The notes beneath the pieces were generated by a model. The model was not told the origin of the DNA, ran no database searches, and was given only the letters and a program-made list of their open reading frames with translations. A stretch of 64,000 bases of DNA from Tenericutes bacterium HGW-Tenericutes-2. GTDB lineage: Bacteria > Bacillota_I > Bacilli_A > Acholeplasmatales > Acholeplasmataceae. Below, piece by piece: positions 24,001 to 44,562 of the stretch (position 1 is its first letter; each line of letters begins with the position of its first letter). The stretch is from contig PGXL01000001.1 of assembly GCA_002839095.1 (NCBI GenBank), forward strand, positions 310,001 through 374,000, read 5' to 3'. Position numbers and translations under genes: made by a program.

Positions 24001-24115
24001 TCATGAGTTTTGTTAAGTCTTCTATTATATTCCTGGTAATTTTACTGAGAAAATCTACCTCGTAAGCTTTTAGATGTAAATCAGAGATGTGAATAATTCC
24101 AATTCGTTTTTCCAT
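21050..24115 (-). CDS. Metallophosphoesterase-STAND/NACHT NTPase fusion
   Basis: 1021 aa. Residues 1-290 are a calcineurin-like phosphoesterase with all five metal-binding blocks: ISDLHL, LSGDIVDAG, PGNHDID, MHHPTDW and IGHKHYG. An NTPase follows, with Walker A GYKQSGKT near 397 and Walker B FVFIIDNCD near 475, in the STAND/NACHT style. The helical C-terminal half has no recognisable repeats. Fusions of a nuclease or hydrolase effector to a STAND NTPase are typical of phage-sensing proteins in which oligomerisation activates the effector (Avs-like). Here the phosphoesterase would be the effector, acting on nucleotides or nucleic acid. A GGGGAG ribosome site precedes the ATG. Two unknown genes lie directly upstream. 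Confidence 0.85.
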   Translation of the reverse strand: MEKRIGIIHISDLHLKAYEVDFLSKITRNIIEDLTKLMIKYDFKCEIVVLSGDIVDAGENSEKVYDAVYNNLCIPLQKNLQIKSNNFITIPGNHDIDRSKVDTIFHDGLYSKLKTEGLDNLNYDNLNITNKLLNYFTFEKKLDDIITPYIIYTQNILFSDFSRGITKINTAWSLSTNNQLDRKNIWIPKALLDESFEKIKKSKIKICVMHHPTDWINDGNYSKIENKIDSYDIVLIGHKHYGSAKNISTSNAISRHFMAPRLGPITGESGYTIFVLDSDNESLGILHRKYNEKREQFINDSDFGDDEYIKQDLNFHDTSLAKTYNIFSETKNLFFKSLSKLFIAAHIIEKDKDFEEYFVLPRIQLIDQEHSNKKTESSPSQCISDIIYSNKPVVILGYKQSGKTMFIHYLAKKFFELKRSLSKYPIIIDFAEKAKVTKDDFLKAAKNFIEDHSGENFSISKSTISELIENGRFVFIIDNCDSNDVNESLKSIIKHFSKCKFIITRNEKMGYFVNEDILPSDYDFENIKFEKYNIMYMTKGDIRELSEKYISSERCDDELLDRIIKDIDSIGMARTPFNVSLIIYIYSVINQYNPINQTKVIEQFMESILEKLNPSEQLSGTFDFQDKESFLSYLAYENWKNGSFSISISKFERFLEEYHHKRSYLIKDTKFDEIFFDKLILVKYRGNVCFRLKFMQQYYLAKFALINEVFYEKMLIGEEFVNFDEEVKYISGLKRDDTRLINVFKDKLDKISEGFGDTTALFNTDDIDVNFFGKSYEDLLTVIEEQKALPTNEKDQLTDLQPNQNGYNPSESNKIEINSDLEKLGILIDILGTITKNCNTIPDKDLKISAIESFIHSSMKLWGEMKVISMEIFKAINTDRLIKSMLEKDMDNNAIREQLDEIIHEMKNAVTLVTPIAIESFMFQSIGTTKLGLLIQEVYLKISYNTPLKLLLLLLIMDIRHESWKENLREFAQKTNRTDYLQVIFFKCSYLNVFGYSNGDEQFIKQIQKEVTRKLKLEYIE

Positions 24116-25078: not shown

Positions 25079-25570
25079 CTAATATTTTAAAATAGGAAAT
25101 GCAGTTTTTATAGTTTTCGTTACACTAACTGCAATAATAATTTTTTCTTCCTTAGTCATTCCGTTATTGTTATAGTAAATTTTATAGTTTTTTATACATT
25201 TGGTATATAGATTTGTTACACCAAAATTACATGTTTCTTTTATTATCTGTAGAACTCTATCTCTAGACCATTCATAATTAAACATAGTTGAATACTTCAG
25301 TGGCCGTTTGGTGCCTTTAACTCTACAGTAGATTTCTAGTATATACTTTTGTGTATTCTGAGTAACAATCTTCCCTTTCTTGCTACACAATTGAGCAAAC
25401 TCAATGATGCTATCATTATGCAAAGTCGTTTCTTTATTATTATGATGAAATCCAGAAGGTTTGCCTTTAGAAACTTGACCTAAAAAAATATGTTCTTGAA
25501 ATCGATCGTCAAGTAATATGTCATTGTCTTCTATTTTAATCCAATAATTGTTTTTTATTCCATTAATCAT
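25079..25570 (-). CDS. Uncharacterised protein linked to the STAND gene
   Basis: 163 aa from the ATG at 25570, chosen because AAGAGGG lies five bases upstream; an in-frame start at 25600 lacks such a site. The protein has a beta-rich N-terminus (NNYWIKIEDNDILLDDRFQ) and a basic C-terminal helix region. No family recognised. It is the first gene of the STAND module, right after the terminator of the vWA operon. Confidence 0.6.
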   Translation of the reverse strand: MINGIKNNYWIKIEDNDILLDDRFQEHIFLGQVSKGKPSGFHHNNKETTLHNDSIIEFAQLCSKKGKIVTQNTQKYILEIYCRVKGTKRPLKYSTMFNYEWSRDRVLQIIKETCNFGVTNLYTKCIKNYKIYYNNNGMTKEEKIIIAVSVTKTIKTAFPILKY

Positions 25571-25620
25571 ATTTTTCCCTCTTTTTAATACAAAATACAA
25601 CTAATGCAGTTGAAAAAAGA

Positions 25621-25783: not shown

Positions 25784-26380
25784 TTACTTTTGTCTTTTCA
25801 TATAATCTTCATCAATTGCAATCATCCAATTACTATTAATCTCATTATTTATTCTAAAATGATTTATAGTTTCTCCAAGAACATCATAAATCACTCTAGT
25901 ACCTCTACCATCAGAGTGAAAGTTTGCTGCTCTATCTCTTCTAGTGCCAAATCTTTCAGCAGTTTCTAATGCATCGATATTAGCTCCTAGGAATATAAAC
26001 TCCCAATTATACATTTCTTTTTGTCTTTCTACCATCTTCTTAATAGATTCATAGGAATACTCTCTACTCGCATTTTCCATACCATCTGTTGTGATGATGA
26101 AAATCACTTTTTCTGCTCTAAAATCCTCTGGTGTGTATTTTTGAACATTGCCAATCTTCTTTATACCTCTACCGATAGCATCCAATAAAGCTGTAGATCC
26201 TCTAACATAATAATCCTTACCTGTCATTGGTCTTACTAGTTCTAAAGGCACTCTATTATGAAGTACTTCAAATTGATCATCAAATAGAACGGTTGAGACT
26301 ACTGCTTCACCTTCAACTTTCTTTTGTTTCGCTATCATTGAATTGAATCCGCCAATCATATCTGACTCTAATCCACTCAT
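25784..26380 (-). CDS. vWA-domain protein lacking the first MIDAS aspartate
   Basis: 198 aa. The von Willebrand A fold is clear: GGFNSMIAKQK helix, STVLFDDQFEVLH, GSTALLDAIGRGIKK and VIFIITTDGMENAS. These last two supply the Thr and Asp of the metal site. However, the DxSxS motif is broken. Upstream of the ATG the frame reads CRSGS instead of DRSGS, with no start codon before it, so the first strand and first Asp are absent. A second fragment at 36498-36722 keeps the intact start of the same family. Homology between the two ends exactly at this point. The gene is the last of the operon, 36 bases after the radical-SAM stop. It may be a decayed copy or work without full metal binding. Confidence 0.75.
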   Translation of the reverse strand: MSGLESDMIGGFNSMIAKQKKVEGEAVVSTVLFDDQFEVLHNRVPLELVRPMTGKDYYVRGSTALLDAIGRGIKKIGNVQKYTPEDFRAEKVIFIITTDGMENASREYSYESIKKMVERQKEMYNWEFIFLGANIDALETAERFGTRRDRAANFHSDGRGTRVIYDVLGETINHFRINNEINSNWMIAIDEDYMKRQK

Positions 26381-26393
26381 AGAACCACTTCTG
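26265..26393. repeat. vWA direct repeat, left copy
   Basis: 129 bases with roughly 85% identity by eye to 36556-36684, in the same orientation. It covers the vWA coding segment from FEV to the RSGS region. Both copies end at the same AGAACCACTTCTG block, after which the sequences differ. The ~10-kb module lies between them. Confidence 0.75.
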
Positions 26394-26415
26394 CATATTG
26401 TTTTATAGACTTCTT

Positions 26416-26970
26416 TTAAATCACTTTTTCATCAAGCAGCTTCCAAAGAAACTCCTCATTGTTTCTTCCGTGGATTTCAACTTGATTCCCTATAATCACT
26501 TCAATACTTTCATGCTGTTCAAAATCACGTGGGTTGTATCTATCAGAATTAAAAGTGATGATTTGATTATCAGAACCTCTTAAATAAAGTTTAGGATTAA
26601 GTTTATCAATTTCAAATGGTTCAGAAATAACAACATCACAAAGCCTAGTACACTCCAATTTAGAACCTTGGAGTTCACTTAAGGAATATCCGGTAAACAG
26701 AATAACACCTATTTTTCTTATTTTTAACTCTTTCAAAAATTCTAATATATGTCTTTGATCTAGTGGTTCTCCACCAAGCAATGTTACATCGTTGTTGGGT
26801 ATTTTATCTACAAGACTATTTATAGTATTATATTCTTTACAATCAAAACTCCATAGGTGCTGATTAATACATCCTTTGCAATGAATAGAACATCCTTGGA
26901 ACCAAATTACTGTTCTTAAATCTGGACCGTATATTCTGCTATTAAAAGCAATATCATAGACGTTTAACAT
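26416..26970 (-). CDS. NrdG-like radical-SAM protein
   Basis: 184 aa, the size of single-domain 4Fe-4S radical-SAM activases. The cluster motif is GCSIHCKGC (C-x3-C-x2-C) near residue 30, and the SAM-binding GGEP block is LLGGEPLDQ near 65. The closest recognisable relatives are anaerobic ribonucleotide reductase activases, which generate a glycyl radical in NrdD. No NrdD or other glycyl-radical enzyme is encoded in the window, so it probably modifies something else, perhaps a protein of this operon. Its ATG at 26970 overlaps by one base the end of the Ycf35-like gene, showing tight coupling. Confidence 0.85.
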   Translation of the reverse strand: MLNVYDIAFNSRIYGPDLRTVIWFQGCSIHCKGCINQHLWSFDCKEYNTINSLVDKIPNNDVTLLGGEPLDQRHILEFLKELKIRKIGVILFTGYSLSELQGSKLECTRLCDVVISEPFEIDKLNPKLYLRGSDNQIITFNSDRYNPRDFEQHESIEVIIGNQVEIHGRNNEEFLWKLLDEKVI

Positions 26971-27494
26971 CAGTATACTCGCTTTATAAATTGCAGTTGA
27001 ATCTCTTCATTAGAGTTATCGATAACATCATAGCCCTGTTTTTCTGCTTCTTCAATGAGTTCTTCTTTAAGTGCAATACAATTGTCTTTTTGTTGTCTTG
27101 CATAAGCGATTGCTGAACCACTCTTTTCGTTTTGAATAGCATCGATAAGTTTGCTAAGTTCTATTTGATTGGTTATATTTCGTCTAGTCTCCTTTTCTTT
27201 GTCCAGTAGAATGTCTTGATAATTTCTATATGCAACCTCAGATCTTCTACTAAAGAGTTTTCTAAGCTCTTCAGTTTGCTCAAATACTGTACTTTGACTA
27301 GACATGGTCTGTACAACAATTCGATCGCCAATTATAATCTTACCTATAGCTATAGAATTCACCACTAAATTATTATTAAGTATCCTTCCGTTAATCTCAT
27401 GAAGGCAATCATTAAATACGTTAACCATTTCATTTTGAGGAAGCAGATTTTTGGTTGCTATAAGTATCATGTTTACTCGTGCAATAGAACTCAC
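26970..27494 (-). CDS. Ycf35/DUF1257-like protein
   Basis: 174 aa. The C-terminal quarter matches the DUF1257 (Ycf35) ending by recall: YARQQ, then LKEELIEEAEKQGYDVI, then a strand IQLQFIKRV. The N-terminal strands and a charged central helix fit loosely. The GTG start at 27494 overlaps the upstream DUF2997 stop as GTGA, with GGAGGTGG upstream, so expression is coupled. Ycf35, DUF2997 and Ycf46 are gene neighbours in cyanobacteria, which supports the assignment. Molecular function is not established for the family. Confidence 0.6.
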   Translation of the reverse strand: MSSIARVNMILIATKNLLPQNEMVNVFNDCLHEINGRILNNNLVVNSIAIGKIIIGDRIVVQTMSSQSTVFEQTEELRKLFSRRSEVAYRNYQDILLDKEKETRRNITNQIELSKLIDAIQNEKSGSAIAYARQQKDNCIALKEELIEEAEKQGYDVIDNSNEEIQLQFIKRVY

Positions 27495-27691
27495 AACTCC
27501 ACCTCCTCAATAACATTTAGTTCTTCATCGTTATCGTAGTAATCAGATTTCAATTCAAAACTTTCTATATCAACAAAGCTTGATAAAATCTTTTTAATCT
27601 CAACAACGCAAGATTCACCTTTATATCCATCTGTTTCCATGACGATACTTGAATCTTTGCTAATAGAGACTATAATTTTTTTACTCATCAA
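27491..27691 (-). CDS. DUF2997-family small protein
   Basis: 66 aa. The start MSKKIIVSISKDSSIVMET followed by GYKGESCVVEIKKI matches the DUF2997 pattern (K-I-V-V-xx-S-x-D-G...G-x-x-G-x-x-C). The conserved Cys is present near residue 29. The acidic tail (DNDEELNVIEEVEL) is a feature of this copy. It overlaps the gene before (10 bases) and after (4 bases). Such small acidic proteins next to a AAA+ ATPase could be substrates, tags or carriers; this is inference. Confidence 0.75.
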   Translation of the reverse strand: MMSKKIIVSISKDSSIVMETDGYKGESCVVEIKKILSSFVDIESFELKSDYYDNDEELNVIEEVEL

Positions 27692-29057
27692 GGAGCACCA
27701 ATGTTGCTGTTTCCATATTGTCCTTTAACCATTTTTGTGCATCAGCAATTCTTTCTTCTGATTTTATGCAAAAGAATAAGTCATTTTGTTTTTCATATAA
27801 TGTACCAACAAGATCACTTGGTACCAGGATATCTTTTTCGGAAATACTTATTGATTGATATCGTTTGTCTTTCTTGTTAAGCAAAGCATCATCACCAACT
27901 TTAATGTCTTCAATAAGCTGATTGTAAAATTTCACTTTACTACTAAGGATTCTTTCTTTCTCAATTTTTTCGATTTGCTTATGGATTGCTTTATTCTCTT
28001 TTTCTTCAGCAATTAATTTTTTTATGTCATCTAGTTTAGATTGAATCTGTGAAGTAACATTTTTAATTTTCTCATACCTTTTAGAGATAGAGTATGATTT
28101 ATTTATGGTCATAGGTTTAACATCTATGTCAACTTTGATACTACAAACAAATTTGTCACTCACTTCATTTGTGAATTGATTAAAATCGGGTTTGAAAATT
28201 CGATATTCATCGACTGGTTTGTAGATAACCTCAGATACCAATTTATTCAAATCAACTGGCTGTTCTTTTCCATTAATCCATACTTTTTTATTTAACAAGG
28301 ATTTAAGAGGCACATTACTAAAACTATGTGCTAAATATATGGATTCTGATTTATTGGTTGGAACATAGTAATCTTCAAAAGGATTTAAATACATTTCTTT
28401 TTGAGTGATGCCAATCGATTCTATTCCTTTCATTATTTGGTGAGTGGTTTTTGCACTATCTTTTAATGAGTTTACCAATAATTCTAAACCCTTAAATTCT
28501 GATGTGGATTCATTGAAAGAAATGCCTTTCAAGTCATCTATATGCTTAACATTTTCAAAATCAGGTTTAATAACACTTAATCGAATTGAATTAACTAATG
28601 AAGGTTCCAAACCTTGTATAACTTCAAAGTCGGTTTTAGACCAAATAATATGGTTTATGTAGCTGAATACTTCGCTTGATACTAAAGATTTCGCTTCAAA
28701 GATATGCTCTTCATCAACAACTAAATATACCCTTGATTTGTCAGCGATAATAACTGCAAGTTTCGAATCTTCCTTTGTTGAACGAATGAACCCACTCTTC
28801 AAACCTTTCTTTGATAAACTCTGCAGTGTTTGAGCATCAACCAAAGCTATGAATTTTTTCGATGTATCATTAAGAAAATATGAGCCTTTTGAAATCAATT
28901 TGTTAAAAATAATATTTCTAGTATCAAACACAATGATACCATCGGATGTGTTATTCAAGATTTCTTCAATAGATATACTCGTGTTTTGTGGCTTAATCAA
29001 ATCAAAACCATATTTAACGATGTTATTACTATTATCAAATGTATATGTATGTTTCAT
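27681..29057 (-). CDS. Uncharacterised operon protein (possible PLD-like N-terminus)
   Basis: 458 aa. Residues 25-125 look like an alternating alpha/beta domain (GIIVFDTRNIIFNKLI..., KFIALVDAQTLQSL, AVIIADKSRVYLVVDEE), which recalls half of a phospholipase-D-like fold without the HxK catalytic pair. Residues ~330-395 are a charged coiled coil (IQSKLDDIKKLIAEEKENKAIHKQIEKIEKE). The C-terminus is alpha/beta with a W. No known family is certain. It overlaps DUF2997 and follows the next gene by three bases, so it is an integral operon member. Confidence 0.65.
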   Translation of the reverse strand: MKHTYTFDNSNNIVKYGFDLIKPQNTSISIEEILNNTSDGIIVFDTRNIIFNKLISKGSYFLNDTSKKFIALVDAQTLQSLSKKGLKSGFIRSTKEDSKLAVIIADKSRVYLVVDEEHIFEAKSLVSSEVFSYINHIIWSKTDFEVIQGLEPSLVNSIRLSVIKPDFENVKHIDDLKGISFNESTSEFKGLELLVNSLKDSAKTTHQIMKGIESIGITQKEMYLNPFEDYYVPTNKSESIYLAHSFSNVPLKSLLNKKVWINGKEQPVDLNKLVSEVIYKPVDEYRIFKPDFNQFTNEVSDKFVCSIKVDIDVKPMTINKSYSISKRYEKIKNVTSQIQSKLDDIKKLIAEEKENKAIHKQIEKIEKERILSSKVKFYNQLIEDIKVGDDALLNKKDKRYQSISISEKDILVPSDLVGTLYEKQNDLFFCIKSEERIADAQKWLKDNMETATLVLLDE

Positions 29058-29060
29058 TAT

Positions 29061-30566
29061 TTACCCCCTTACCATCTGCAATAAGTCGAATTTATCCTTT
29101 TTCAACTCTTTTGAGTCAATTTTAATAATTGAACCCATCACTGTTCCATGATCTTGACTAAAATACTGACCATATTCACAAGTCATCAAATATGAGACGA
29201 ATTTACCGTTTTTAAGAGAGAACAAGATATAGCGATCGTGGAATGATTTCAATATGTCGCTGTTCTCGACGATGTTTATGCCCATGTTTGTAACATCTGA
29301 TTCGACTTTTTGATCTTTAGTTTGAATATTGCCTTTTTGCACAATCACGATGTCTTTATAAGACTTTTTAAATGAATTCATAGCATCAATAATCTTATTA
29401 CGTTGATTTTTAACAAAAGGATAACCTAGTACAAAATAAACTTTATTAACTTCTGAAGGACTAATTTCTTGCTCAAACAATTTAAGTAGTTGATCGTAAG
29501 ATTGAGCACTTGAGAATTCATTATTTTGAATTTTAATATCAAGTAGATATTCAAGAATCGAGAGTTTATATGCGAGTGTTTTAAATTTATCATCGGACAA
29601 GTATTGTCTAAATCCATTCATTGAATAACTAAAAGAAGCAAGTTTCCTTTTTACTGATTCTTCAAAAATATCTCTTGTTAATATTTCGTTTTGGAACATT
29701 TCATCAAGTTCCATAAAACTTAAATAGTTATTTCCTTTGAGTTTGAAATATGCGTAAAGATATGCATATTCTAAGGCTTGATTCCCTTCTTTTATACTAA
29801 TAGGAATGTTTTCAATCGTAACACCATCTTTATTGAATTTAGATAACTGTCCCTTTATTAGGTCAGATTCACTAAAATCCTTGAGTGATTTGATTGTCAG
29901 GGTCACAAGATCCAAATCAAAATGTCCATAATCGTTTGTTAGCAATATTTGTTCAACCTTTGATTTGAGTTTGATGTATAAATCATCACCACATAGTAGC
30001 CATTTATCACCAAATTTGTATTTCTTATCGAGGATATCAAATTTAACCTCGCTCTTCGTTGTAGATGATTCCATGACTCTAGTAGCTCTTTGCTCACCAT
30101 ATAAATCAAGAGAATCAAAAGTTGTAAACTCGTTCGAATCATTATCGACAATAATTTGATTATGACTGATAAGTAAACGGTTTTGATATGGAGTCAATAA
30201 CCTTTTTTCATCAGATAATTTCCGTTTAATGTTTGTGATAATGGAGTAATCGCCATCGAGTAAAGCAATCTTGCTAAAATCAATCGAATAAGTTCCTTTT
30301 TCTGTTTCAGCTATCAGTGGGTGGTTAATAATTAATTGGCCTTTTGATGTGATGTTTTGATTATTATCAATATATCCACTCTCTAATAGATTCTTGAATA
30401 GAGCATTTGATATTGAGTTTGATCTAAAAATATCGATTAATTTTCTGTTTTTTTTCAGTTCAGTCAACAATCCTGCAATGTCTTTTCGTTCTCTAAAGAA
30501 GGTCAACTTGAATTTGCCCTCTATATTTGTTAATTCACTAGGTACTTGATAGTGTATTTTTGTCAT
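29061..30566 (-). CDS. Uncharacterised operon protein with PLD-like C-terminal domain
   Basis: 501 aa. An N-terminal part includes a winged-helix-like stretch (NALFKNLLESGYIDNNQNITSKGQLII). The C-terminal ~120 residues have the pattern of a single PLD-like/MIT-C type domain: NKVYFVLGYPF..., KDIVIVQKGN, then FHDRYILFSLKNG with the HDR motif, then a glycine-rich strand. A second HKD is not seen, so hydrolase activity would need a dimer or may be absent. Adjacent to the helicase gene (4-base gap). Proteins with this HDRY motif are common in defence loci, where the domain often recognises a ligand. Confidence 0.6.
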   Translation of the reverse strand: MTKIHYQVPSELTNIEGKFKLTFFRERKDIAGLLTELKKNRKLIDIFRSNSISNALFKNLLESGYIDNNQNITSKGQLIINHPLIAETEKGTYSIDFSKIALLDGDYSIITNIKRKLSDEKRLLTPYQNRLLISHNQIIVDNDSNEFTTFDSLDLYGEQRATRVMESSTTKSEVKFDILDKKYKFGDKWLLCGDDLYIKLKSKVEQILLTNDYGHFDLDLVTLTIKSLKDFSESDLIKGQLSKFNKDGVTIENIPISIKEGNQALEYAYLYAYFKLKGNNYLSFMELDEMFQNEILTRDIFEESVKRKLASFSYSMNGFRQYLSDDKFKTLAYKLSILEYLLDIKIQNNEFSSAQSYDQLLKLFEQEISPSEVNKVYFVLGYPFVKNQRNKIIDAMNSFKKSYKDIVIVQKGNIQTKDQKVESDVTNMGINIVENSDILKSFHDRYILFSLKNGKFVSYLMTCEYGQYFSQDHGTVMGSIIKIDSKELKKDKFDLLQMVRG

Positions 30567-30570
30567 TCTT

Positions 30571-33558
30571 TTAATTGACCTCCTTGAAAATGTTCTTTAG
30601 TAATTCTGAATAATTTTGATCTTGGAAAAACTTCTTGTTACCAAAAATGATGAGTTTATCTTTAGCTCTAGTAATAGCGACATTCATTCTGTTTACGGAA
30701 TCTAAGAATCCAACGCGATAATTTTGAACCATTGACAGATATACAATATCTGCTTCTTGTCCTTGAAATTTATCTACCGTATTCAGAGATACTTCAATAC
30801 CATTCTTTTTAAAGCTGTACTTACTGTTTGAACTAAAATATTTTTGTAATAGTTGTCTTAAATAATAAACCTGACCATTATAAAATGTCAAAATTGCAAT
30901 CTTTGTACCTTTATTAGGACTGCTTTTGAAATATAAATCTAATTCTTGAACAATTGCATTTGCTTCTTCTTCGTTTTTATTTCTCTCAATGTTTTCACAT
31001 ACAACATTGCGAATTTCAAATCTTGGTTTATTGTTAATATACTGGAAAGAGGCATATGTTCTTGTGTCATCTTTTAATGCACGATCATCATAGATAAACT
31101 TTCTTGGAATTCTAGAGATGTCTTCATGCATACGATACTGATATTCGAGGGTCAAAAACCTATTTTGTTTATCTTCTTCTGTTAAACCAGAATTTAGGAT
31201 GGTTTTTTTAGGATTAGTACTTCGCTTTTTAATACCGTTTTGAAGCAGCATGATAATCGAGGGTAGAGATATTTCTTCAAGCATCGCAATTGTCTCTTCA
31301 TAGTCTTTCTTCATCTCTAAAGGTAAGTACTTTGTGATATTATTAATATACTTTTCATAACCAATCTTTTTCTTTGGATCATTATTAGTTAATTCATACA
31401 TTCTAATTAACCTCCAGATAATTTCGTCCTCGAGGTTTTTTGAATAGCTATCAAATAAATCATATACTGCTTTTTGCCTACTATAGTTGTCAATTCTGTG
31501 GTGTAAAACTTTGTAATCCTCGAAATAGTTAATGCTCGTTAGATTGTTATTATCACCAATCACTTTGTAGTTGGTTGATAAATAGTTTAGAGAGGTTTTT
31601 AGTAGGGATTCTTCAGCAATAATAATATGATTATTTGAACTTAACGCTGCTAGTTCAAATGACTTATGTTCTATTTCATCATGTGTGATTGAGAAAATAT
31701 TGTTTAGTTTTTTGTTTGTTATGGCGATGAGCCCTTCTTTATCTTTATCATCAATAAATGAATCGATATATCTTATGCTTGAGTTTGACATGATAAAGAC
31801 ATTATTTTTCATTTGATCCTTTTGGCTTTCTAGCATAATCAGAAAATATATAGCTCTTCTATTTTCTTTGCTATTTAAAGGTTTTGAAGTGATTAATGTC
31901 GGTGTCAAATCGTTTCTTTCAACATATGGCGCTAATTGTTTTACGTCGCCAACAATGACCCATTTTTTGGCGAATATGGCAGGCACTAAGAATTCATTGA
32001 ATGTTGTCTTCGATGCCTCATCAATAATCATATAATCAAACATAGGTTCAATACTTTGCGCATCGTTATCTCGATCCAAAGCTTCTTTAAATTTAGGATA
32101 CCTTAAAATGCCAATAGTGGTACCACACACTAAGTTAAATGAATCTTCTACTATTAAACGATATTTTTCTTCTACACCCCGCATAACATTTTCGTAGCAG
32201 TACTTTTGCACTTCAGGAACATATACGTTATTTTCATCACCAATTCTCACTGGATTGATATACTTTAGAATATTTTCATTATCTGGATGTCTAATAATCT
32301 TTTCTAAGACATTATCAATTGCAACATGTGTTGATGCACATAACAGAATCTTTTTGCCTTCTTTAAGAACCTGGTAAATAAATTCTAATATCGCAGTTGT
32401 TTTTCCGCTACCCGGAGGACCTTCTAAAATCATCATATCTGGTGTAGATAAGGCTTTAGAAACAAATTCTCTTTGAATGCTATTGCCTTTAAGAGAGTCT
32501 TTAGTCAACACTTTAAATGCTTGATTATCAATCAATTTATAACTCTTAAAACTGTCTAAATAGCTTTTCTCAATATCATCACTTAATAATAATAATGGAC
32601 GATGAAATTCACTAGGGCGATTTACTAAAATATCAATTGCATTTTTTTGACATCTTAATTGGTATCTATTAGTAGAAACATATATTTTACCTTCATTCTT
32701 AAATAATTCAGGCTTATCTGTTTGAATCACTAAATGACCATATTCTTTCACTTTATCTTTGACATCAAACGTTTGCTTTTTATTACCTTCTAAATAAATA
32801 CTTTCAACATCTTCATTAAAGAAGACATCATAGACTGATAACTCTGATTTATCATCATCTTCGAGTTCAAGAGTAACTCTATTTTTCGCTTGATTATTGT
32901 CGGCTTTATTCAATGAATAGGTAATAAATGCATGTGTAGAGTCTTCGCATTGATTATCTTTAAACTCTTCAATCCAAACTTTATTATTAATTACATTGAT
33001 GGTCTTTCCATCATAATCTACTGAAGAGGATACCCATTGATTTAGAACTATTTTAATATTCGAATCTTTGTTAATTAGAATTTGAAAATCTGTTTGCTCA
33101 AATTTGAAGAAGAACTTATTACTCTCTTTAATAACTTTAATCTCTGAATTATTAATCCAAACAGAATCTACTCTTATATCATTCACAGTCATGCCATATT
33201 CTTTTAAAGTATCAATTTTAGTTTGATCAGATTCGTATTTACCATTAATTATCTTAGTAGTGACTGTGAATGAAAACCATTTGTTATTTAAAAAATATTC
33301 TTTGTTCTTGTCGACTCGTTTGAATCTTGCACAAACACTTTCTTTTTTATCTGCAGTGTCATACGCCTTTTGAATATAGTTCTTAAATGCACCGTAATCT
33401 GTTTCAACTTTACGCTCAATATTCATATAATTTCTCATAAGTTGAGTAGTATCAGCTTGTTCATTTAAATGATAGATTGAGTCATAACATAAATCCTTAA
33501 TTTTCCATCTAGCTAATCTCTTATTACTATCGTACTGTTTAGTATTTTGTTGTTCCAC
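30571..33558 (-). CDS. Upf1-like superfamily 1 helicase
   Basis: 995 aa. The N-terminal ~370 residues are not recognised. The helicase core shows Walker A GPPGSGKT near 382, motif Ia CASTHVAIDNV, motif II IIDEASKTT near 513, motif III VGDVKQLAPYV, and C-terminal motifs V/VI NTVDKFQGQEADIVYLS and MNVAITRAKDKLIIFG near 960. This is the AAA_11/AAA_12 (Upf1/Dna2-like) group, which unwinds or translocates on RNA or DNA. There is a ~200-residue insertion between the two RecA lobes. It shares one base with the Ycf46-like gene upstream, so the two are made together. Confidence 0.9.
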   Translation of the reverse strand: MEQQNTKQYDSNKRLARWKIKDLCYDSIYHLNEQADTTQLMRNYMNIERKVETDYGAFKNYIQKAYDTADKKESVCARFKRVDKNKEYFLNNKWFSFTVTTKIINGKYESDQTKIDTLKEYGMTVNDIRVDSVWINNSEIKVIKESNKFFFKFEQTDFQILINKDSNIKIVLNQWVSSSVDYDGKTINVINNKVWIEEFKDNQCEDSTHAFITYSLNKADNNQAKNRVTLELEDDDKSELSVYDVFFNEDVESIYLEGNKKQTFDVKDKVKEYGHLVIQTDKPELFKNEGKIYVSTNRYQLRCQKNAIDILVNRPSEFHRPLLLLSDDIEKSYLDSFKSYKLIDNQAFKVLTKDSLKGNSIQREFVSKALSTPDMMILEGPPGSGKTTAILEFIYQVLKEGKKILLCASTHVAIDNVLEKIIRHPDNENILKYINPVRIGDENNVYVPEVQKYCYENVMRGVEEKYRLIVEDSFNLVCGTTIGILRYPKFKEALDRDNDAQSIEPMFDYMIIDEASKTTFNEFLVPAIFAKKWVIVGDVKQLAPYVERNDLTPTLITSKPLNSKENRRAIYFLIMLESQKDQMKNNVFIMSNSSIRYIDSFIDDKDKEGLIAITNKKLNNIFSITHDEIEHKSFELAALSSNNHIIIAEESLLKTSLNYLSTNYKVIGDNNNLTSINYFEDYKVLHHRIDNYSRQKAVYDLFDSYSKNLEDEIIWRLIRMYELTNNDPKKKIGYEKYINNITKYLPLEMKKDYEETIAMLEEISLPSIIMLLQNGIKKRSTNPKKTILNSGLTEEDKQNRFLTLEYQYRMHEDISRIPRKFIYDDRALKDDTRTYASFQYINNKPRFEIRNVVCENIERNKNEEEANAIVQELDLYFKSSPNKGTKIAILTFYNGQVYYLRQLLQKYFSSNSKYSFKKNGIEVSLNTVDKFQGQEADIVYLSMVQNYRVGFLDSVNRMNVAITRAKDKLIIFGNKKFFQDQNYSELLKNIFKEVN

Positions 33559-35120
33559 TAATTATCCCCCTCGAGTAAAGGATTGTAACTCTCACTCTTT
33601 AAACGAACTACCTTATCGGTTCCTTCTATGTTTTCTGTATACTCATCACCAGCTAATCTTGCTCTATTTTTAGCCCATGATCGTAGTGATGCTATCTTCT
33701 CTGCCATTACAGTTGATAAAGGTGTTAGTTTGATTCTTTCTTTGATAATATCCTCTGTGATCAATTCACGTTGATTTGAAAACGATTCAAATAAAGCATC
33801 TGCTACTACCGAGTAAATTTCAGAACCTGTTAAACCGTTCGATTTTTCAGCCAATAAATCTAAATTAAACTTCGATGCATCTCTTCTTTTGCCATTTATA
33901 TGAATTTTAAATATTTCTTTTCTTTCATTATAACTTGGTAAATCCACAAAGAAGATTTCATCAAATCGACCTTTTCTAAGTAATTCAGGTGGAAGATTTT
34001 CTATGTTATTGGCTGTTGCTACAACAAATACAGGCTCCGTTTTTTCTTGCATCCAAGTTAACAAACTTCCAAATACTCTCGATGCTGTTCCCCCATCCGT
34101 TCTATCACTACTGCCTAAACCAGATAATCCTTTTTCTATTTCATCAATCCATAATACACATGGAGAAATCGTTGTTGCAATATCAAGTGCTCTTCTCATG
34201 TTGGATTCACTTTGTCCAACGATGCCTCCAAATACTTTTCCTAAATCGAAACGGAGCAGAGGGAATTTCCATGTATTTGCAATAGATTTAGCAGTTAATG
34301 ATTTCCCAGTTCCGGGGAGACCTAGCAATAATACGCCTTTAGGTGTATCAATACCGTATTCTCGTGCTTTTTCACTAAATGAGTTAGCTCTTATGTGTAA
34401 CCATTTCTTTAAGTTTTGCAAACCACCAACATCCTTAAGGGATTCATTTGCACGATAATATTCAAGAAGACCATCTTTTCTTATGATGTGTTCTTTTTCT
34501 GAAATTAAATAATCAATGATACTGTTGTCAAGTTTCCCATATTTTTCAACAGCTTTATTGAATGCTAGATTGATTTCAGTAGTTGTCAATCCCAATACAC
34601 TGGATAATAACTCATCTGTCAGTTCATAATCTTTAGAAACTAGATTTGCATTGATTATAACACTCTCGGCAATCTTTCTTATAAATCCCTTATTTGGAAG
34701 AGGCATATAAAGCACAACAATCTCTTTTGATAACGCACTTGGTAATGTCATTTCACTGGTTTCAATAATTAGTGTTTTTTGAATTGTTCTTTTCATTTTA
34801 CATATTTCAAACAACAAGTTAACAACATCGGGGCTGTTCAAATAAAAGTTAAAATTTTCAAGGATTAAAAAGCCTGACTCGTTGTCTTCTTTAAATGTCT
34901 TAAGCAGTTGAAGTGGATCTAGTACCGGTTGTACATTACCATCTTGATCAACAACACCCACACTTCGATTCCATCTTTTCCATTTTGTCATTTCAGAAAT
35001 AGCAATACGATTCACTGTGCTTTGAAGTCTTTGCCACTCAGTTGTAACAACTTCAATAATTGGAGTTTTACATTTTAATAACAACTCTAATTCATTTTCA
35101 AATTCTTTTACCTTATCCAT
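33558..35120 (-). CDS. Ycf46-type AAA+ ATPase
   Basis: 520 aa. Residues 1-230 form the N-domain typical of Ycf46 (start with ELELLLKCKTPIIEVVTTEW, meant for a RecA-like degenerate lobe). The AAA+ core has Walker A GLPGTGKS near 268, the Ycf46 hallmark segment WKFPLLRFDLGKVFGGIVGQSES, Walker B CVLWIDEIEKG near 325, and sensor/arginine finger VVATANNIENLPPELLRKGRFDE. Length and order match cyanobacterial and plastid Ycf46. In Synechocystis the family has been tied to CO2-utilisation control, but here it sits with helicase and radical-SAM genes. It is the first large gene of the module and probably remodels a partner protein complex. Confidence 0.9.
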   Translation of the reverse strand: MDKVKEFENELELLLKCKTPIIEVVTTEWQRLQSTVNRIAISEMTKWKRWNRSVGVVDQDGNVQPVLDPLQLLKTFKEDNESGFLILENFNFYLNSPDVVNLLFEICKMKRTIQKTLIIETSEMTLPSALSKEIVVLYMPLPNKGFIRKIAESVIINANLVSKDYELTDELLSSVLGLTTTEINLAFNKAVEKYGKLDNSIIDYLISEKEHIIRKDGLLEYYRANESLKDVGGLQNLKKWLHIRANSFSEKAREYGIDTPKGVLLLGLPGTGKSLTAKSIANTWKFPLLRFDLGKVFGGIVGQSESNMRRALDIATTISPCVLWIDEIEKGLSGLGSSDRTDGGTASRVFGSLLTWMQEKTEPVFVVATANNIENLPPELLRKGRFDEIFFVDLPSYNERKEIFKIHINGKRRDASKFNLDLLAEKSNGLTGSEIYSVVADALFESFSNQRELITEDIIKERIKLTPLSTVMAEKIASLRSWAKNRARLAGDEYTENIEGTDKVVRLKSESYNPLLEGDN

Positions 35121-35160
35121 TTTATAGCCCCCTATTATTTAATTTAAGTTCCGATTAGGA

Positions 35161-35192
35161 AGACAGCCTTCTAATTTCTCAGAAGGCTGTCT
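35161..35192. terminator. Perfect hairpin between HTH gene and the ATPase gene
   Basis: AGACAGCCTTCT is exactly inverted at 35181-35192, giving a 12-base-pair stem with an 8-base loop. It contains the stop of the HTH gene (35171). The T-tract after it on the minus strand is weak, so it may partly terminate and lower expression of the downstream operon. Confidence 0.6.
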
Positions 35193-35416
35193 AGTGTACA
35201 ATTAAGCATTTCAGCAAGTTGAACAGCTTTAGCTAATGAGGGTTGTTTTGTCCCTGATTGCCAATAGTTCACCATTCTTAGAGTTACCCCTAATTTCCAT
35301 GCAATGTAGTCGCGAGTCATGCTCGGTTCCTCTTTAATTGCATTTTCTATGGCATTGAATATGGCTAATCCAATGTCTGCTTTTGAACTTAACTGTTTTT
35401 TGTTGTTTGTCTGCAT
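35171..35416 (-). CDS. Small HTH regulator (XRE-like)
   Basis: 81 aa from ATG 35416, chosen because GGAGGA lies eight bases upstream; a longer frame from 35458 lacks a site. Residues 25-78 form a helix-turn-helix: MTRDYIAWKLGVTLRMVNYWQSGTKQPSLAKAVQLAEMLN. This is the form of a Cro/CI-type DNA-binding protein. Its place just before the Ycf46-like gene suggests it controls this operon. Confidence 0.8.
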   Translation of the reverse strand: MQTNNKKQLSSKADIGLAIFNAIENAIKEEPSMTRDYIAWKLGVTLRMVNYWQSGTKQPSLAKAVQLAEMLNCTLDSLLRN

Positions 35417-35521
35417 GATCTTTCCTCCTACGAAAGATTCATATTTTAGATTAACCACACAGTAACAACACCATTATTTTACCACTAGATAGTCTTTATT
35501 TTTACTTCAATTTTAATGCTT

Positions 35522-35731
35522 CTATAATTTTTTGAACAAAAAGTCTTCTAACTTTATATTAAAGTGTTCACAAATTCTTACAACACCCATTACAGAATGA
35601 TAATTATTTGGAAGTTCTAATAATACCAACAACTCTGTAATCCTTAAATGATTAAGTCTACATAATGTTTGCAAATTTGTCTTTATATTATAGTTAGCTG
35701 ATTTTCTTGTCTCCATATCATACACATTCAC
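35522..35731 (-). CDS. Small HTH-like protein
   Basis: 69 aa. The sequence NIKTNLQTLCRLNHLRITELLVLLELPNNYHSVMGVVRICEHFNIKLEDFLF has the length and spacing of an XRE helix-turn-helix ending in the usual F.I.LEDFL segment. The GTG at 35731 or the ATG at 35716 could be the start; neither has a strong ribosome site. It lies between the unknown gene upstream and the HTH gene downstream. Confidence 0.6.
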   Translation of the reverse strand: MNVYDMETRKSANYNIKTNLQTLCRLNHLRITELLVLLELPNNYHSVMGVVRICEHFNIKLEDFLFKKL

Positions 35732-35738
35732 TTTCTAT

Positions 35739-36182
35739 TTATGCGCTAAGGTTTTTATAGATATTCCTTCCATATTGGTGTCCTAGCGATTCCATAATGG
35801 CTTTCATTTTTTTGAGTTTAAATATTTTTACTGATTCATCTCTAAGTTTGATAAACTCATTTCTATTTGATTTGATATCTTTCCATTGATGATAGTTTGG
35901 TTCGTCTTCGAGTCTCTCTTCAAATAATTGTAATCGAGTTCTTGTCTTATTATTCCAGTATTCATCACTGTAGGTTTTTGATTGTTCAACTTCGTATTCT
36001 TCAAATGTTGTTTCTATCGGGGATTCAAGACACCAATCTTTATGATCTCTTTTTACACCACCATGATTTTTTGCTCTCTTGATTGCTTCATCCATGTCTT
36101 GTGCTTTAATTGGTAATGTCATTGGTAAATATTTACTTCTTCCCACGTGACCCATTTTGACTTTGATTAAGTAGTATTTCAT
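35739..36182 (-). CDS. Uncharacterised small basic protein
   Basis: 147 aa. The start MKYYLIKVKMGHVGRSKYLPMTLPIKAQDMDEAIKRAKN has the look of a short alpha/beta domain with a GHVGR turn; the rest is charged and helical. No family is certain. It is the first gene of the leader cluster, with an AGAGAGG ribosome site, behind the repeat-rich control region at 36370-36480. Confidence 0.6.
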   Translation of the reverse strand: MKYYLIKVKMGHVGRSKYLPMTLPIKAQDMDEAIKRAKNHGGVKRDHKDWCLESPIETTFEEYEVEQSKTYSDEYWNNKTRTRLQLFEERLEDEPNYHQWKDIKSNRNEFIKLRDESVKIFKLKKMKAIMESLGHQYGRNIYKNLSA

Positions 36183-36369
36183 AATTTTTTACCTCTCTTT
36201 TTTGTTCTACACTTTCATTAAAACATAAAAATCTAGATGTGAAACATTGGCTATATGAACTATTGGTTCCAATCACATTTATGGTTATTTTTTGATATTG
36301 TGTCTCTTGTTTTTTTAAATAATTCTAAAGGGGTTTACTACATAGGAGTAGAAGATGAAAATTTTGTAG

Positions 36370-36480
36370 CTCAATAAAATCTACATATGGTTTTATTGAG
36401 ATATAACTTGATATTTATTCAATACAACTTGATAAAAATCAATTCATCTAGATGATCAAGTAAATTGATATTTTTTCAAT
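36370..36480. promoter_or_regulatory. Repeat-rich operator-like region
   Basis: The 315-base gap 36183-36497 contains: a 10-base-pair perfect inverted repeat (CTCAATAAAA 36370-36379 with TTTTATTGAG 36391-36400); two near-identical copies of TTGATATTTATTCAAT (36409-36424 and 36465-36480); the palindrome-like TTGATAAAAATCAA (36429-36442); and the perfect 12-mer TCATCTAGATGA (36444-36455). Such a cluster ahead of HTH genes suggests binding sites for autoregulation. Confidence 0.5.
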
Positions 36481-36497
36481 ATGTTACGTCTTTTATC

Positions 36498-36722
36498 TCA
36501 ATCTCTATATGGTTTATATACGTAATTGAGTAATAGATTGTGTAAAGGATGAAAAACTTCAAATTGATCATCAAATAATACAGTTGAAATTATTGCTTCT
36601 GCTTCAATTTTCTTTTTTTTCGCTATCATTGAATTGAATCCACCAATAGTATCAGACTCTAATCCATTCAAAGAACCACTTCTGTCCAATATAAATACAA
36701 TCTCTATTAATCCTTTTTTCAT
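36498..36722 (-). pseudogene. 5' fragment of a vWA-domain gene
   Basis: 74 codons. It begins with an intact first strand and MIDAS motif (IVFILDRSGS, residues 8-17) and continues to FDDQFEVFH, the same family as the gene at 25784-26380. It then breaks off into unrelated residues and a stop. A strong ribosome site (GAGAGGG) precedes the ATG. It supplies exactly the part the other copy lacks. Confidence 0.7.
36556..36684. repeat. vWA direct repeat, right copy
   Basis: Matches 26265-26393 (see there). Lies inside the vWA 5' fragment, in the same orientation. Confidence 0.75.
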
Positions 36723-36942: not shown

Positions 36943-37848
36943 TTATAATCTATCATCTCTATTGAGATCAAAATTACTGTATCCGATTTCTTGTGCTTTA
37001 AATGTTTTTTTAGGGTTAATACTTCTTATTATATCGTTAAACTTAAATTTCATGAACTTATCCCTATAAATTTGGCTAGATAATTCATGATCTTCCATGC
37101 TTATGATGTAAGTTGATTGATTCAAGTTTGATAAAGTAAAATCTATAAAACTAATATGATCAAACGTGATGTTTGTATACAAATTGGTATCTTTTTTTTG
37201 ATGTATCTTGGATACATATGGAGGATCCATATAAATAAAACATTGCTCTTTATTCTCAAAACTGTAGACAACATCAATAAAGTTATTATAACTCATGTTA
37301 TATAATTTAACATTGCTAAACTTTTCACGCAAATGTGACAGTTCATTAACAGAGTGTTTTATCTTTTTCTTTTTACCAAATGGTACATTGAATAACCCAT
37401 TCATGTTTAGACGATAGACCCCATTAAACCCCGCTTTCATTAATAACCAAAACATTACTGACTTATCCAATGAATCATAAGTCACTTGATTAACAACGGT
37501 ATTATATTTTTTTCTTGTTTCATAATAAAAACTTTCTTTATCATTTAGACTCAAACTATTAAAATGTAAAATTACTTTATCCAACATAGAAGTTATTTCA
37601 TCAAAATTGTTGATTAAATTATGAAAAAAATTATAAATACTACCGTTGATGTCGTTGATATAATATTTATCATACATATCATTATTTAAGACATTAAGAA
37701 ACACTATACCGGAGCCAATAAATGGCTCAATATAAACTTTCTTAGATATATCAAAAGTTCTTAACATTTCATTGAGTAACTTTCTTTTTGATCCTGCCCA
37801 TCTGATAGGAGAACTGATTACTTTTGATTGAATTTCTTTATTTTCCAT
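36943..37848 (-). CDS. D12-class DNA adenine methyltransferase (Dam-like)
   Basis: 301 aa from the ATG at 37848, chosen over an upstream alternative at 37944 because homology starts right after it. Motif I is IRWAGSKRKLL near residue 12 and the catalytic motif IV is FIYMDPPYV (DPPY). YIEPFIGSGIVFLN is also typical. This family methylates adenine N6, classically at GATC. The gene overlaps the NERD-helicase end by 11 bases and is the last gene of the DISARM-like operon. As in other defence systems, it probably marks self DNA. The recognition site is unknown. Confidence 0.88.
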   Translation of the reverse strand: MENKEIQSKVISSPIRWAGSKRKLLNEMLRTFDISKKVYIEPFIGSGIVFLNVLNNDMYDKYYINDINGSIYNFFHNLINNFDEITSMLDKVILHFNSLSLNDKESFYYETRKKYNTVVNQVTYDSLDKSVMFWLLMKAGFNGVYRLNMNGLFNVPFGKKKKIKHSVNELSHLREKFSNVKLYNMSYNNFIDVVYSFENKEQCFIYMDPPYVSKIHQKKDTNLYTNITFDHISFIDFTLSNLNQSTYIISMEDHELSSQIYRDKFMKFKFNDIIRSINPKKTFKAQEIGYSNFDLNRDDRL

Positions 37849-39376
37849 CGTAAATAACCTCGTATAGGTAGTACTTTGCACGTGTATAAGCAACATAATC
37901 ATAATTTGGATAACTTTTTTGTGGTCTAATATAGAAAACAACACTTGATTCTAGACCCTTAAATCTTGATGTTGTAAACTTTCTAATCTCACCGGGTATA
38001 GTCTGTATTTCTTCAGTGAGTGTATATTGACCTATACAGTCTAGTGTAATATTTGAACTCAACTTGTCATCAATTATAATAGTAATATCAGCACTATTGA
38101 CGTGCTCATCAATAATCATTTCATTCAAGAGATCTTCCAACTTATTTATCAGCTGGTTAAAAGTATTAATTTGAATAATTTCTGGGGTAGGTCCAATAAT
38201 GGGATTTGTTATAACATCTGTGCCGAGATTAGTCTTACTTGTTGCATATTGATAAATATTCATTGTATTCCTAAGGTTCTCTCTGAGTACATAAGGTGGT
38301 TCCTTAATAAACTCTTCGAAGTTGATTTTTGTGTTTAAAACATTTTGTGTTTCATCGTAAAAAACATAAAGTTTAGAGGTGTTATTTTTCAACATTGAGC
38401 AAATGAATTTAATCTCATCATAATTGAAATCCTGACCTTCGTCAATAACAATTACATCATAAAAAACTTGCGGTGTTTCGTTATGACTATTATCAATACT
38501 TTTCAGTACTGCAAAAGAAGTAACTTGTACCCTTTCATCTGTATGTTGCTTTATCATTGTAGATAATTCTATACTTTTACAAGTAAGCAGCACAGTTAGT
38601 CCATTTCGACTTTGTAAATTGCTATACTTAATCGCAATCCATGTTTTGCCTGTCCCTGCGCCACCTTTGACAAGAACTCTATTGTAATTAGTAAGGAAAG
38701 TTATGTAATTATCTTGTACTCTATTAATAATTTCTAACTGTTTATCTTTATGTTGGATAAGTGATCCAGCTGCTGCAGAAATAGCAACTCTTTTTTCGAC
38801 CAACTTTAAAAATTTTTGTTTTTGATCCTCTGTAAACACTCTTTGATAGGGCTCTTTATGTCCTCTCCAAAAATTAAAAGCCTCTCTAATCTTTAAATTT
38901 AAATCTTTCATATCTGAATAGTCTATCGTCACAGATTTTGGACGATTGCCAAGCATTTCTGGATTATTAACTACAAAGTTTGGATATGCAACCATATAAC
39001 CAAATGTTCCCTTGAAAGAGAAATTATACTGTTGCTGATAGTATTTTAGAAAATAATACATATTTTGTTCTGCTTGATCAAATGGGCTTTTTTTGAGTGT
39101 TCTAATTCCATAATCATCATGTAAATACCACACATTATTTTCAACATGAAGTTGGTGTCCCCCTTTAACTTCAATAACTAAATATCCGTATTTTGGATCA
39201 AAAATAAGAAAATCTGTTTCTGACATTTTGCGTGTTCGATTATCAAAAGTAATCCAGCTAATGCTAAAAAAAACATACACTTCGTCGTTAAGTTGATTTT
39301 TTAATGCGTAAAAAAACTCTCGTTCAGAAGGAGTCGATTCCATGTAATCTATGTTTGCAGGGTACATTATCGCCAT
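37838..39376 (-). CDS. NERD nuclease-SF1 helicase fusion
   Basis: 512 aa from ATG 39376, with GGAAG eight bases upstream; a TTG at 39391 lies in frame but is weaker. Residues 15-150 hold a NERD domain (ETDFLIFDPKYGYLVIEVKGGHQL). The SF1 helicase core follows, with Walker A KGGAGTGKTWIA near 240, DEGQD near 313 and a C-terminal VAYTRAKYYLY motif VI. The split around the core is short, like UvrD-type proteins used in defence. The gene starts six bases past the DrmB stop and ends overlapping the methylase start, so it belongs to the operon. Confidence 0.85.
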   Translation of the reverse strand: MAIMYPANIDYMESTPSEREFFYALKNQLNDEVYVFFSISWITFDNRTRKMSETDFLIFDPKYGYLVIEVKGGHQLHVENNVWYLHDDYGIRTLKKSPFDQAEQNMYYFLKYYQQQYNFSFKGTFGYMVAYPNFVVNNPEMLGNRPKSVTIDYSDMKDLNLKIREAFNFWRGHKEPYQRVFTEDQKQKFLKLVEKRVAISAAAGSLIQHKDKQLEIINRVQDNYITFLTNYNRVLVKGGAGTGKTWIAIKYSNLQSRNGLTVLLTCKSIELSTMIKQHTDERVQVTSFAVLKSIDNSHNETPQVFYDVIVIDEGQDFNYDEIKFICSMLKNNTSKLYVFYDETQNVLNTKINFEEFIKEPPYVLRENLRNTMNIYQYATSKTNLGTDVITNPIIGPTPEIIQINTFNQLINKLEDLLNEMIIDEHVNSADITIIIDDKLSSNITLDCIGQYTLTEEIQTIPGEIRKFTTSRFKGLESSVVFYIRPQKSYPNYDYVAYTRAKYYLYEVIYDGK

Positions 39377-39381
39377 ATGAG

Positions 39382-41235: not shown

Positions 41236-41238
41236 AAT

Positions 41239-44200: not shown

Positions 44201-44562
44201 AATTCAAATAAATCTCTATGCGAAATTTTGTATTTATTGTGAAGATAATTTAATTGTTCTTCAAAATTAGGTTTTTCTCGATAAAACAAGTTTCCATCGA
44301 GATTTAAGTAGATTATACCTTGAGCATTTTCCTGAATACGAAATTGAAGTCCAATCGAAGGTAAAGATTTAAATTTCAATTTTTCCTCATCATACTTAGA
44401 TAAATACTCATCTTGATTTTCTCCAGATAACATACCTATCAAAGACACTTCTTTTGGGATTTGATTCAGATATAAATTACTTGATCCACCACAAGATATT
44501 TTTTCGATATATTTATCTAGAATGTATTGACTTACAATTTGGTAGTTTTTAATAGCACTCAT
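41239..44562 (-). CDS. drmA: DrmA-like helicase
   Basis: 1107 aa from ATG 44562 (AAAGGA upstream). SF2 helicase features: Walker A FPTGGGKTEAF near 479, DExH as QDELH near 696, a CPYCGE/CTTC zinc knuckle before it, and C-terminal SRVGRTYPGF near 947, with TSSISHGVDE. The long N-terminus is typical of DISARM DrmA. The start overlaps the end of the upstream SF1 helicase by 14 bases. In DISARM, DrmA and DrmB form the core complex that recognises incoming DNA. Confidence 0.88.
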   Translation of the reverse strand: MSAIKNYQIVSQYILDKYIEKISCGGSSNLYLNQIPKEVSLIGMLSGENQDEYLSKYDEEKLKFKSLPSIGLQFRIQENAQGIIYLNLDGNLFYREKPNFEEQLNYLHNKYKISHRDLFEFTDFVKAAKSEHPVAQIREQFVDKYRKINLKDILSDIIIYDNGNFIAEDKINQIISSRLSELMSNLQVESHMISKAQFPIQDYVDEDLYNVNLKSHSQKSFLNWSLEIKINVHNKENQNLCRVQFINRTPRLNKKIADFSHDTTLYNAGISVFSDNINFENLKLNMIKHDYIDPVSIKGLAENSSINYNQITNTLSTTNVPVFIQKRLKTNDSLDSTITFVNLINRPIESLHTILDVMRSTLASYQKDYDKDIILRKSKAYLQKEESEIESFRQEIKKFESGIELLKRKHDVLNAFLYMNKTFNHKMYQNQQTFKGWKLFQIVFIVSQLNEIVYSEYKDSPDYSSNDIDVVDLLYFPTGGGKTEAFIGCVVFTLFFDRIRGKEQGVSALIKYPLRLLSVQQLDRVLTIVVKANEFLKSLGNYNMFSLGYYVGSQNTENTIYTETAKKIESFTKEDFNNKFKVIDVCPYCGEMTIQTHFDKSNWKIIHECTTCSNQLPIYTIDDEIYRYLPSVIIGTVDKLAMLGTSPKYKLLYGDHQGFCTKHGFTTKNKCERCGTEVSPKNLKDPIYTLSIQDELHLVRESLGTFASHYESFLNYYSRSLIQKTYQKKIKYIAATATISNFEEHVLNLYSKYARSFPVNIKGKNVYSFIDEHDISRYIIGFAPYGGSMIEGIQKSVTYFRELISTLFDDPKIYEEVSKLGFEGDIKQLNDIIMKYYIEIVYHNSKSDTRELASALQNQGNNYLHSKGLNEYEISEISGDSDFKDIKSVIYRIQKEADKKLTPNLIMATSSISHGVDESSFNQIFFYGMPNNTAEYIQAYSRVGRTYPGFVMDIIRLVRDRDKSYLKNFVLFHEYKDKLVEPVPINKWAKKAIYSTIPGLFSGLLIQGYGSEFYHSKNIKDAFLDGRISKDELKKHLIHIYGCNNLPAGNEYSKVIDSEVDKIYQGIINLADGKLSISDILKLTTTIQHGPMSSLRDIDVMLEMGLS

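Follow-up and report, generated by a model that had tools for sequence, protein, structure and literature searches.

Mokosh, with its genes mkoA/mkoB and mkoC, has been defined previously (PMC11672841) and reportedly degrades viral transcripts and has domains in common with the piRNA pathway (PMC11291487). In cyanobacteria, DUF2997 and ycf35 form a cluster with fed7, the gene for a 4Fe-4S ferredoxin (PMC4284462), and in red algae the presence of ycf35 and ycf46 tracks the habitat, a pattern in which the authors see a connection with iron (PMC5940233). We found in the literature no assignment of function for Ycf46, Ycf35/DUF1257 or DUF2997, and nothing relevant on DUF2997, DUF1257 or Ycf46 in connection with defence. 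Here we describe an operon in which a Upf1-like superfamily 1 (SF1) helicase and two proteins of phospholipase D (PLD) superfamily fold stand with a Ycf46-type AAA+ ATPase, a DUF1257-like protein, a DUF2997 protein and a radical-SAM protein. The operon lies in a stretch of 64,000 nt (the window, whose numbering is used for all positions) of Tenericutes bacterium HGW-Tenericutes-2, PGXL01000001.1, 310,001-374,000. From the comparisons given below, it is most likely an undescribed defence system, Mokosh-like in its working but failing to match MkoB.

The ten genes, g01 to g10, form a single minus-strand unit of ~10 kb at 26,416-36,182 (Table 1). The overlaps between neighbours are 1 bp (AAA+/helicase and g09/radical-SAM), 4 bp (DUF2997/g09) and 11 bp (g07/DUF2997), in agreement with the run of overlapping genes reported in a preliminary description of this DNA. 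Its assignments of the AAA+, SF1 helicase, DUF2997, radical-SAM and helix-turn-helix (HTH) genes were confirmed by Pfam. Its label of g09 as DUF1257-like was also right: a profile built up from proteins that carry the DUF1257 annotation captured the counterparts of g09 in other operon copies (E from 1e-5 to 3e-27). Its match to the window protein, which had no Pfam match, was weak (E 1e-4). The two proteins left there as unknown are indeed identified by no Pfam, NCBIfam or PADLOC-DB model, but both g06 and g07 are PLD-superfamily folds. No model of these collections covers the whole gene set, and the module, which the preliminary description did not recognise as a named system, is named by no model of PADLOC-DB or NCBIfam.

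The operon is rare, horizontally transferred, scattered over bacteria and archaea, and inserted as one unit. The insertion site is a vWA gene, which had been listed among the components and which is not one. The open reading frame (ORF) 25784-26380 is a 5'-truncated vWA gene without its first ~13 residues, including most of the start of the metal-ion-dependent adhesion site; its missing 5' part is found beyond a block that contains exactly g01 to the radical-SAM gene. Sibling genomes have an intact, stand-alone vWA gene of ~215 codons (59-79 % identical), and no vWA gene adjoins the operon in its other copies. The split gene, intact and alone in the siblings, thus marks where the transferred unit begins and ends (Table 1), and the vWA was therefore dropped from the module model. 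Since the 134-bp overlap shared by the two vWA pieces is long and diverged (~86 % identical to each other), it suggests homologous recombination rather than transposition.

Copies were found by scans of GTDB contigs and of IMG/VR with the AAA+ alignment, the results of which were read with profiles of each gene. All ten genes recur in the same order in a genome from another family of the same order (G070, locus L013), and so the operon is more than a chance arrangement. The identities between the window and L013 were 78 % for the AAA+ ATPase, 52 % for the helicase, 39 % for g06, 34 % for g07, 54 % for DUF2997, 41 % for g09 and 54 % for the radical-SAM protein. The seven-gene core (AAA+, helicase, g06, g07, DUF2997, DUF1257, radical-SAM) is present in the window, L013, L027, L028, L029, L030, L103/L104 and L088; it is permuted in L032 and L024 and cut by a contig end in L023. 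Hosts are Pseudomonas sp. A-1, the myxobacterium Paraliomyxa miuraensis, two Methanococcoides and a rumen Bacteroidales, with further copies in two archaeal metagenome-assembled genomes (MAGs; permuted, one degraded) and on two IMG/VR contigs. One Tenericutes contig ends after the helicase. The Bacteroidota contig L195 has the helicase, g06 and g07 and no AAA+ gene. Clostridia MAGs, G266 and G825 have a shorter form that lacks helicase and g06 and consists of AAA+, g07, DUF2997 and radical-SAM, with a DUF1257-like gene in L026. In such helicase-less Clostridia-type operons (L183:11306-14632 and L025/L026), tandem paralogues of 100-150 aa, FnIII-like in look, precede the AAA+ gene.

In the AAA+ tree, all 11 operon sequences fall with six others into one 17-row clade (SH-like approximate likelihood ratio test, 99), which mixes Pseudomonadota, Myxococcota, Methanosarcinaceae, archaeal MAGs, Bacteroidota, Mycoplasmatota and Bacillota. 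The number of label changes on this tree was 4, compared to 10.6 for shuffled labels. Within the order, 2 of 160 genomes had the g06 gene, and all same-genus siblings listed were without it; the g07 profile matched in 4 of the 395 genomes of the class and in 2 of 345 of the phylum of the Bacteroidales. Neither g06 nor g07 had a match in the plasmid and phage collections, and the IMG/VR scan with g07 gave none.

The recurrence in unrelated genomes within defence islands that the preliminary description predicted was looked for and found. The window itself is such an island, as had been proposed, with DISARM-type drmA/drmB, a D12 methyltransferase, NERD helicases including a reverse transcriptase (RT)-associated one, type I restriction-modification (RM), a methyl-directed restriction endonuclease and PDC-S60. 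The neighbours in other copies are JetD (Wadjet) and TmtA in L013, HsdM and HsdS (type I RM) in L023, Hhe/PDC-S37 in L028, and BrxC, PglX (BREX) and PDC-S02 in L030; in L029, Csm3 (type III Cas) is 9 kb from the operon. These are system-specific genes, different from locus to locus.

The helicase g05 was matched by the Upf1-type Pfam families AAA_11/AAA_12 (1.9e-31 and 2.7e-38), and its nearest solved relatives are UPF1, SMUBP2, SEN1 and DNA2. The PADLOC MkoA model matched g05 at 2.9e-73 and the operon helicases at 1e-73 to 1e-81; generic Upf1/IGHMBP2 models match g05 as well, and the MkoA model has matches in 13 of 14 control genomes.

For the C-terminal domain of g06 (AlphaFold model, predicted local distance difference test score, pLDDT, 63), the best structural match was MITD1 (Foldseek 4e-4; VIA Z 8.8 over 129 residues), followed in Foldseek and VIA by Tdp1, Nuc, Zucchini, BfiI and SauUSI. 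A PDB profile search with g06 returned chance-level pyridoxal kinase matches only. The HDR motif is conserved in the PLD-bearing copies L013, L027, L028, L030 and L103. The motif is HDR and not HxK, and cleavage by g06 would be a guess. The N-terminal domain of g07 is homologous to the L195 protein (hhalign 96 %, 1.7e-9), which has two intact HKD motifs, HxK(x)4D, read by eye. The window g07 no longer has the HKD motif, and its weak matches to FAM83A/B agree with a pseudo-PLD. We also considered g06 or g07 as the PLD subunit of DISARM and rejected this; no module protein had a Drm match, and the module occurs elsewhere with no DISARM genes seen nearby.

Several loci link the helicase and PLD genes to other partners. 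In the Prolixibacteraceae operon L092:95-8430, a MkoA-like helicase and a MkoB-like PLD protein are encoded with a DUF1257-like protein and an AAA+ ATPase of the same Ycf46 type. This coupling of a Mokosh-like pair to the AAA+ and DUF1257 supports a putative working partnership between the helicase/PLD half and the AAA+ half of the operon. In the Bacteroidota locus L195:381-7108, an AbiP2-like RT is followed by a MkoA-type helicase, g06 and the two-HKD g07; this RT, directly upstream of the helicase cassette, matches PDB 7r08 (4e-92), which we take to be Abi-P2. In the archaeal MAG locus L032:3-2288, an Argonaute-like gene overlaps the module helicase by 4 bp, and a 262-aa ORF precedes it. L210 has this Argonaute-like gene in full (772 aa), and in L024 two Argonaute genes sit on other contigs with no module genes there. 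The likely core, overlooked in the preliminary description, is the helicase with two PLD-fold proteins, which would follow a Mokosh-like logic, plus Argonaute in one archaeon. A different arrangement was seen in L008:6677-19476 (NZ_CP084774.1, a Klebsiella plasmid with mcr-10): vWA, a 523-aa protein, a Ycf46-like AAA+ (715 aa), CARF-PDDEXK (DUF1887), PP2C, a kinase and a MkoA-like helicase; operons of this type are located on enterobacterial conjugative plasmids.

The AAA+ ATPase g04 (Pfam AAA, 2.3e-30) is CDC48-like with intact Walker A/B and arginine-finger regions, has the conserved N-terminal region of the Ycf46 type and aligns over its full length with homologues at 38-49 % identity (38-43 % for cyanobacterial relatives). 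The DUF2997 match of g08 is above the Pfam cut-off. The GxxGxxC motif is kept in 62 of 73 DUF2997 homologues; its dependence on the radical-SAM protein was considered and is not supported, as the motif is retained where no radical-SAM gene was seen. The g10 protein (Fer4_12/Radical_SAM, Pfam 5e-25) is nearest to pyruvate formate-lyase (PFL) activase. It has the small radical-SAM fold and CxxxCxxC of NrdG and PFL activase, but it scores 90.2 bits against the NrdG equivalog cut-off of 126.1, and the operon encodes no glycyl-radical enzyme; activation of ribonucleotide reductase in the NrdG manner was rejected on these two grounds. Stable glycyl-radical chemistry seems unlikely in those hosts that are aerobes, such as Rhodococcus or Paraliomyxa. 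Related AAA+ genes adjoin SbcC/SbcD-, primase- and PolIII-like genes (by eye) on large-phage contigs of IMG/VR (L107, L111, L115-L117, L122 and others), and a Treponema plasmid (L005, pTRESU01 52.6-74 kb) has AAA+ and radical-SAM genes among VgrG/baseplate-type genes.

We favour, with confidence that is about evenly balanced, a horizontally transferred defence operon in which a helicase/PLD part that targets nucleic acid is joined to the Ycf46-DUF1257-DUF2997-radical-SAM module. The anti-phage function, the nucleic-acid target and the division of labour are what we infer. The Upf1-like helicase with g06 and g07 would be the analogue of the helicase and PLD nuclease of Mokosh and engage foreign RNA or DNA; g07 is probably derived from a two-HKD nuclease and is degenerate in the window. 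The AAA+ ATPase, presumably hexameric, with DUF1257, DUF2997 and the radical-SAM protein, may assemble, remodel or switch the helicase/PLD complex; the AAA+ with DUF1257/DUF2997 could act on the effector by remodelling or licensing it. DUF2997 has a conserved Cys and two Gly and would be the most plausible protein to be acted on by the radical-SAM enzyme or to carry chemistry for it; which step this pair performs is a guess.

Some observations weigh against a defence operon of this kind. Neither g06 nor g07 matched the MkoB model. The g06 proteins of L032, L088 and L024 have no PLD domain and g07 has no HKD motifs in the full seven-gene operons, and therefore catalysis by g06/g07 is putative. 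The structure model of g07 (mean pLDDT 46.9) is too poor for use. The AAA+/DUF1257/DUF2997 part is not defence-specific, since it is also chromosomal in cyanobacteria and present in large-phage contigs. Finally, when cyanobacterial flanks were compared with PADLOC as a control, helicase, kinase and AAA families matched there too (among 25 of 77 families listed); for this reason generic PADLOC matches were not counted, and only system-specific neighbours were.

The strongest competitor, though we think it improbable, is a housekeeping or stress module in which AAA+, DUF1257, DUF2997 and the radical enzyme keep up a redox or iron-sulphur process while the helicase/PLD proteins act in RNA or DNA repair. 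The chromosomal cyanobacterial copies, the DUF2997-ycf35-fed7 cluster and the red-algal link of ycf35/ycf46 to habitat and iron would fit such a role. It would not predict what is seen: the full set is rare and has moved by horizontal transfer, siblings do not have it, and its neighbours are genes of BREX, DISARM, Wadjet and RM and an Argonaute.

Somewhat less credible is a helper of mobile elements that gathers in islands and would serve in replication, in counter-defence or in stabilising a plasmid or phage. Sets of AAA+, DUF2997, DUF1257 and radical-SAM genes do occur on Rhodococcus, Paenarthrobacter and Treponema plasmids and on large-phage contigs, where the AAA+ gene adjoins SbcCD-, primase- and PolIII-like genes, and in L023 serine recombinase-like genes are directly upstream of the operon. 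On the other hand, genes for an integrase, a relaxase or replication are absent from the full set, and the plasmid and phage collections gave no match to g06 or g07. We give the same low standing to a Mokosh variant in the strict sense with extra genes. It draws on the MkoA-model matches of the helicases, the PLD-fold partners and the company of MkoA- and MkoB-like proteins with AAA+ in L092, but generic models match the helicase too and the MkoA model matches in nearly all controls. In addition, hhalign of g06 or g07 against the single MkoB-like protein of L092 gave no signal, no MkoB-type nuclease or MkoC helicase-PLD fusion was found (the PLD domain stands apart from the helicase and has an MITD1-like HDR fold), and Pfam found in the operon no Ser/Thr kinase of Mokosh type I. 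The pairing of AAA+ and vWA as a chaperone-like, MoxR/vWA-type conflict system, proposed in the preliminary description, can be dismissed as very improbable, for although the operon is followed by a piece of a vWA gene in the same orientation, this is the broken host gene of the integration site, with its 5' part across the block and no intact vWA beside an operon AAA+.

Table 1. Genes of the operon, the transferred unit and the split host gene in the window.
Feature	Position	Strand	Description
host vWA 3' part	25784..26392	-	coding sequence nt 40-648; not module; alignment to intact sibling genes
transferred unit	26393..36549	-	10.16-kb block separating the two vWA pieces; blastn and alignment to intact sibling vWA genes
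g10	26416..26970	-	radical-SAM protein, PFL-activase/NrdG type, 184 aa, CxxxCxxC
g09	26970..27494	-	DUF1257 (Ycf35)-like, 174 aa; profile evidence
g08	27491..27691	-	DUF2997, 66 aa; GYKGESC motif (family pattern GxxGxxC); Pfam 4e-6
g07	27681..29057	-	458 aa; N-terminal degenerate PLD domain, coiled coil, conserved C-terminal element
g06	29061..30566	-	501 aa; N-terminal helical/beta region, C-terminal PLD-like domain (~341-484), HDR motif 443-445
g05	30571..33558	-	Upf1-like SF1 helicase, 995 aa; GPPGSGKT, IIDEAS, QYRMHE, FQGQE motifs intact
g04	33558..35120	-	Ycf46/CDC48-type AAA+ ATPase, 520 aa; Walker A GLPGTGKS, Walker B LWIDE, RKGRFDE intact
g03	35171..35458	-	HTH_3 regulator, 95 aa; Pfam HTH_3 7e-6; same place in L013, L023
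g02	35522..35731	-	Cro/C1-type HTH, 69 aa; weak HTH_26 match; same place in L013, L023
g01	35739..36182	-	lineage-specific small protein, 147 aa, first gene; homologues at same place in L013, L023
host vWA 5' part	36550..36722	-	coding sequence nt 1-173; not module; alignment to intact sibling genes

Elsewhere in the window, the DISARM-type drmA/drmB, the D12 methyltransferase and the RT-associated NERD helicase (39382-44595 and 36943-39391) are directly upstream of the vWA insertion site. A protein with an EndoU nuclease domain (Pfam 4e-10; 25079-25600), possibly a toxin-type gene, is just downstream of the vWA piece. The PDC-S60-type protein at 21050-24115 (metallophosphoesterase and NTPase) is a candidate single-gene defence system.

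Compared with known systems, the operon adds a candidate defence type not named by the PADLOC-DB or NCBIfam models used. The IetA AAA model of IetAS matches the g04 ATPase domain (3e-28), but the match is confined to that domain and the operon has no subtilisin-like IetS. Sets on actinobacterial and Treponema replicons have the same AAA+ family and a NrdG/PFL-activase-like radical-SAM protein, with DUF2997 on the actinobacterial plasmids; they differ in having no helicase or PLD proteins. The cyanobacterial and plastid Ycf46-Ycf35(DUF1257)-DUF2997 genes belong to the same families as those of the operon, whereas the cyanobacterial copies have no helicase, g06, g07 or radical-SAM gene within the DNA examined, and the operon AAA+ is in a different clade. 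As the core of a transferred island operon that also encodes helicase and nuclease folds, these proteins, conserved in cyanobacteria and plastids, gain a testable setting.

The operon resembles Mokosh in the pairing of a putative COG1112/Upf1-like helicase, matched by the MkoA model as well as by generic Upf1 models, with PLD-superfamily proteins; it differs by the absence of a MkoB match and of a kinase domain, by divergent or degenerate PLD domains, and by five further conserved genes. The parts also resemble the piRNA logic of PIWI, the MOV10L1/Armitage helicase and Zucchini/PLD6: in one archaeal operon, L032, an Argonaute is encoded together with a Upf1-like helicase and a PLD-type protein that is degenerate. 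This is a likeness of parts at a single locus and not a claim of homology between the pathways. It is a long shot, in our judgement, that the helicase-g06-g07 cassette makes up a core for the destruction of nucleic acid, which different recognition modules may serve, be it Argonaute (L032), an AbiP2-type RT (L195) or the Ycf46-DUF1257-DUF2997-radical-SAM machine, and that this would be a prokaryotic counterpart of PIWI-MOV10L1-Zucchini, licensed by a radical-SAM-dependent AAA+ switch.

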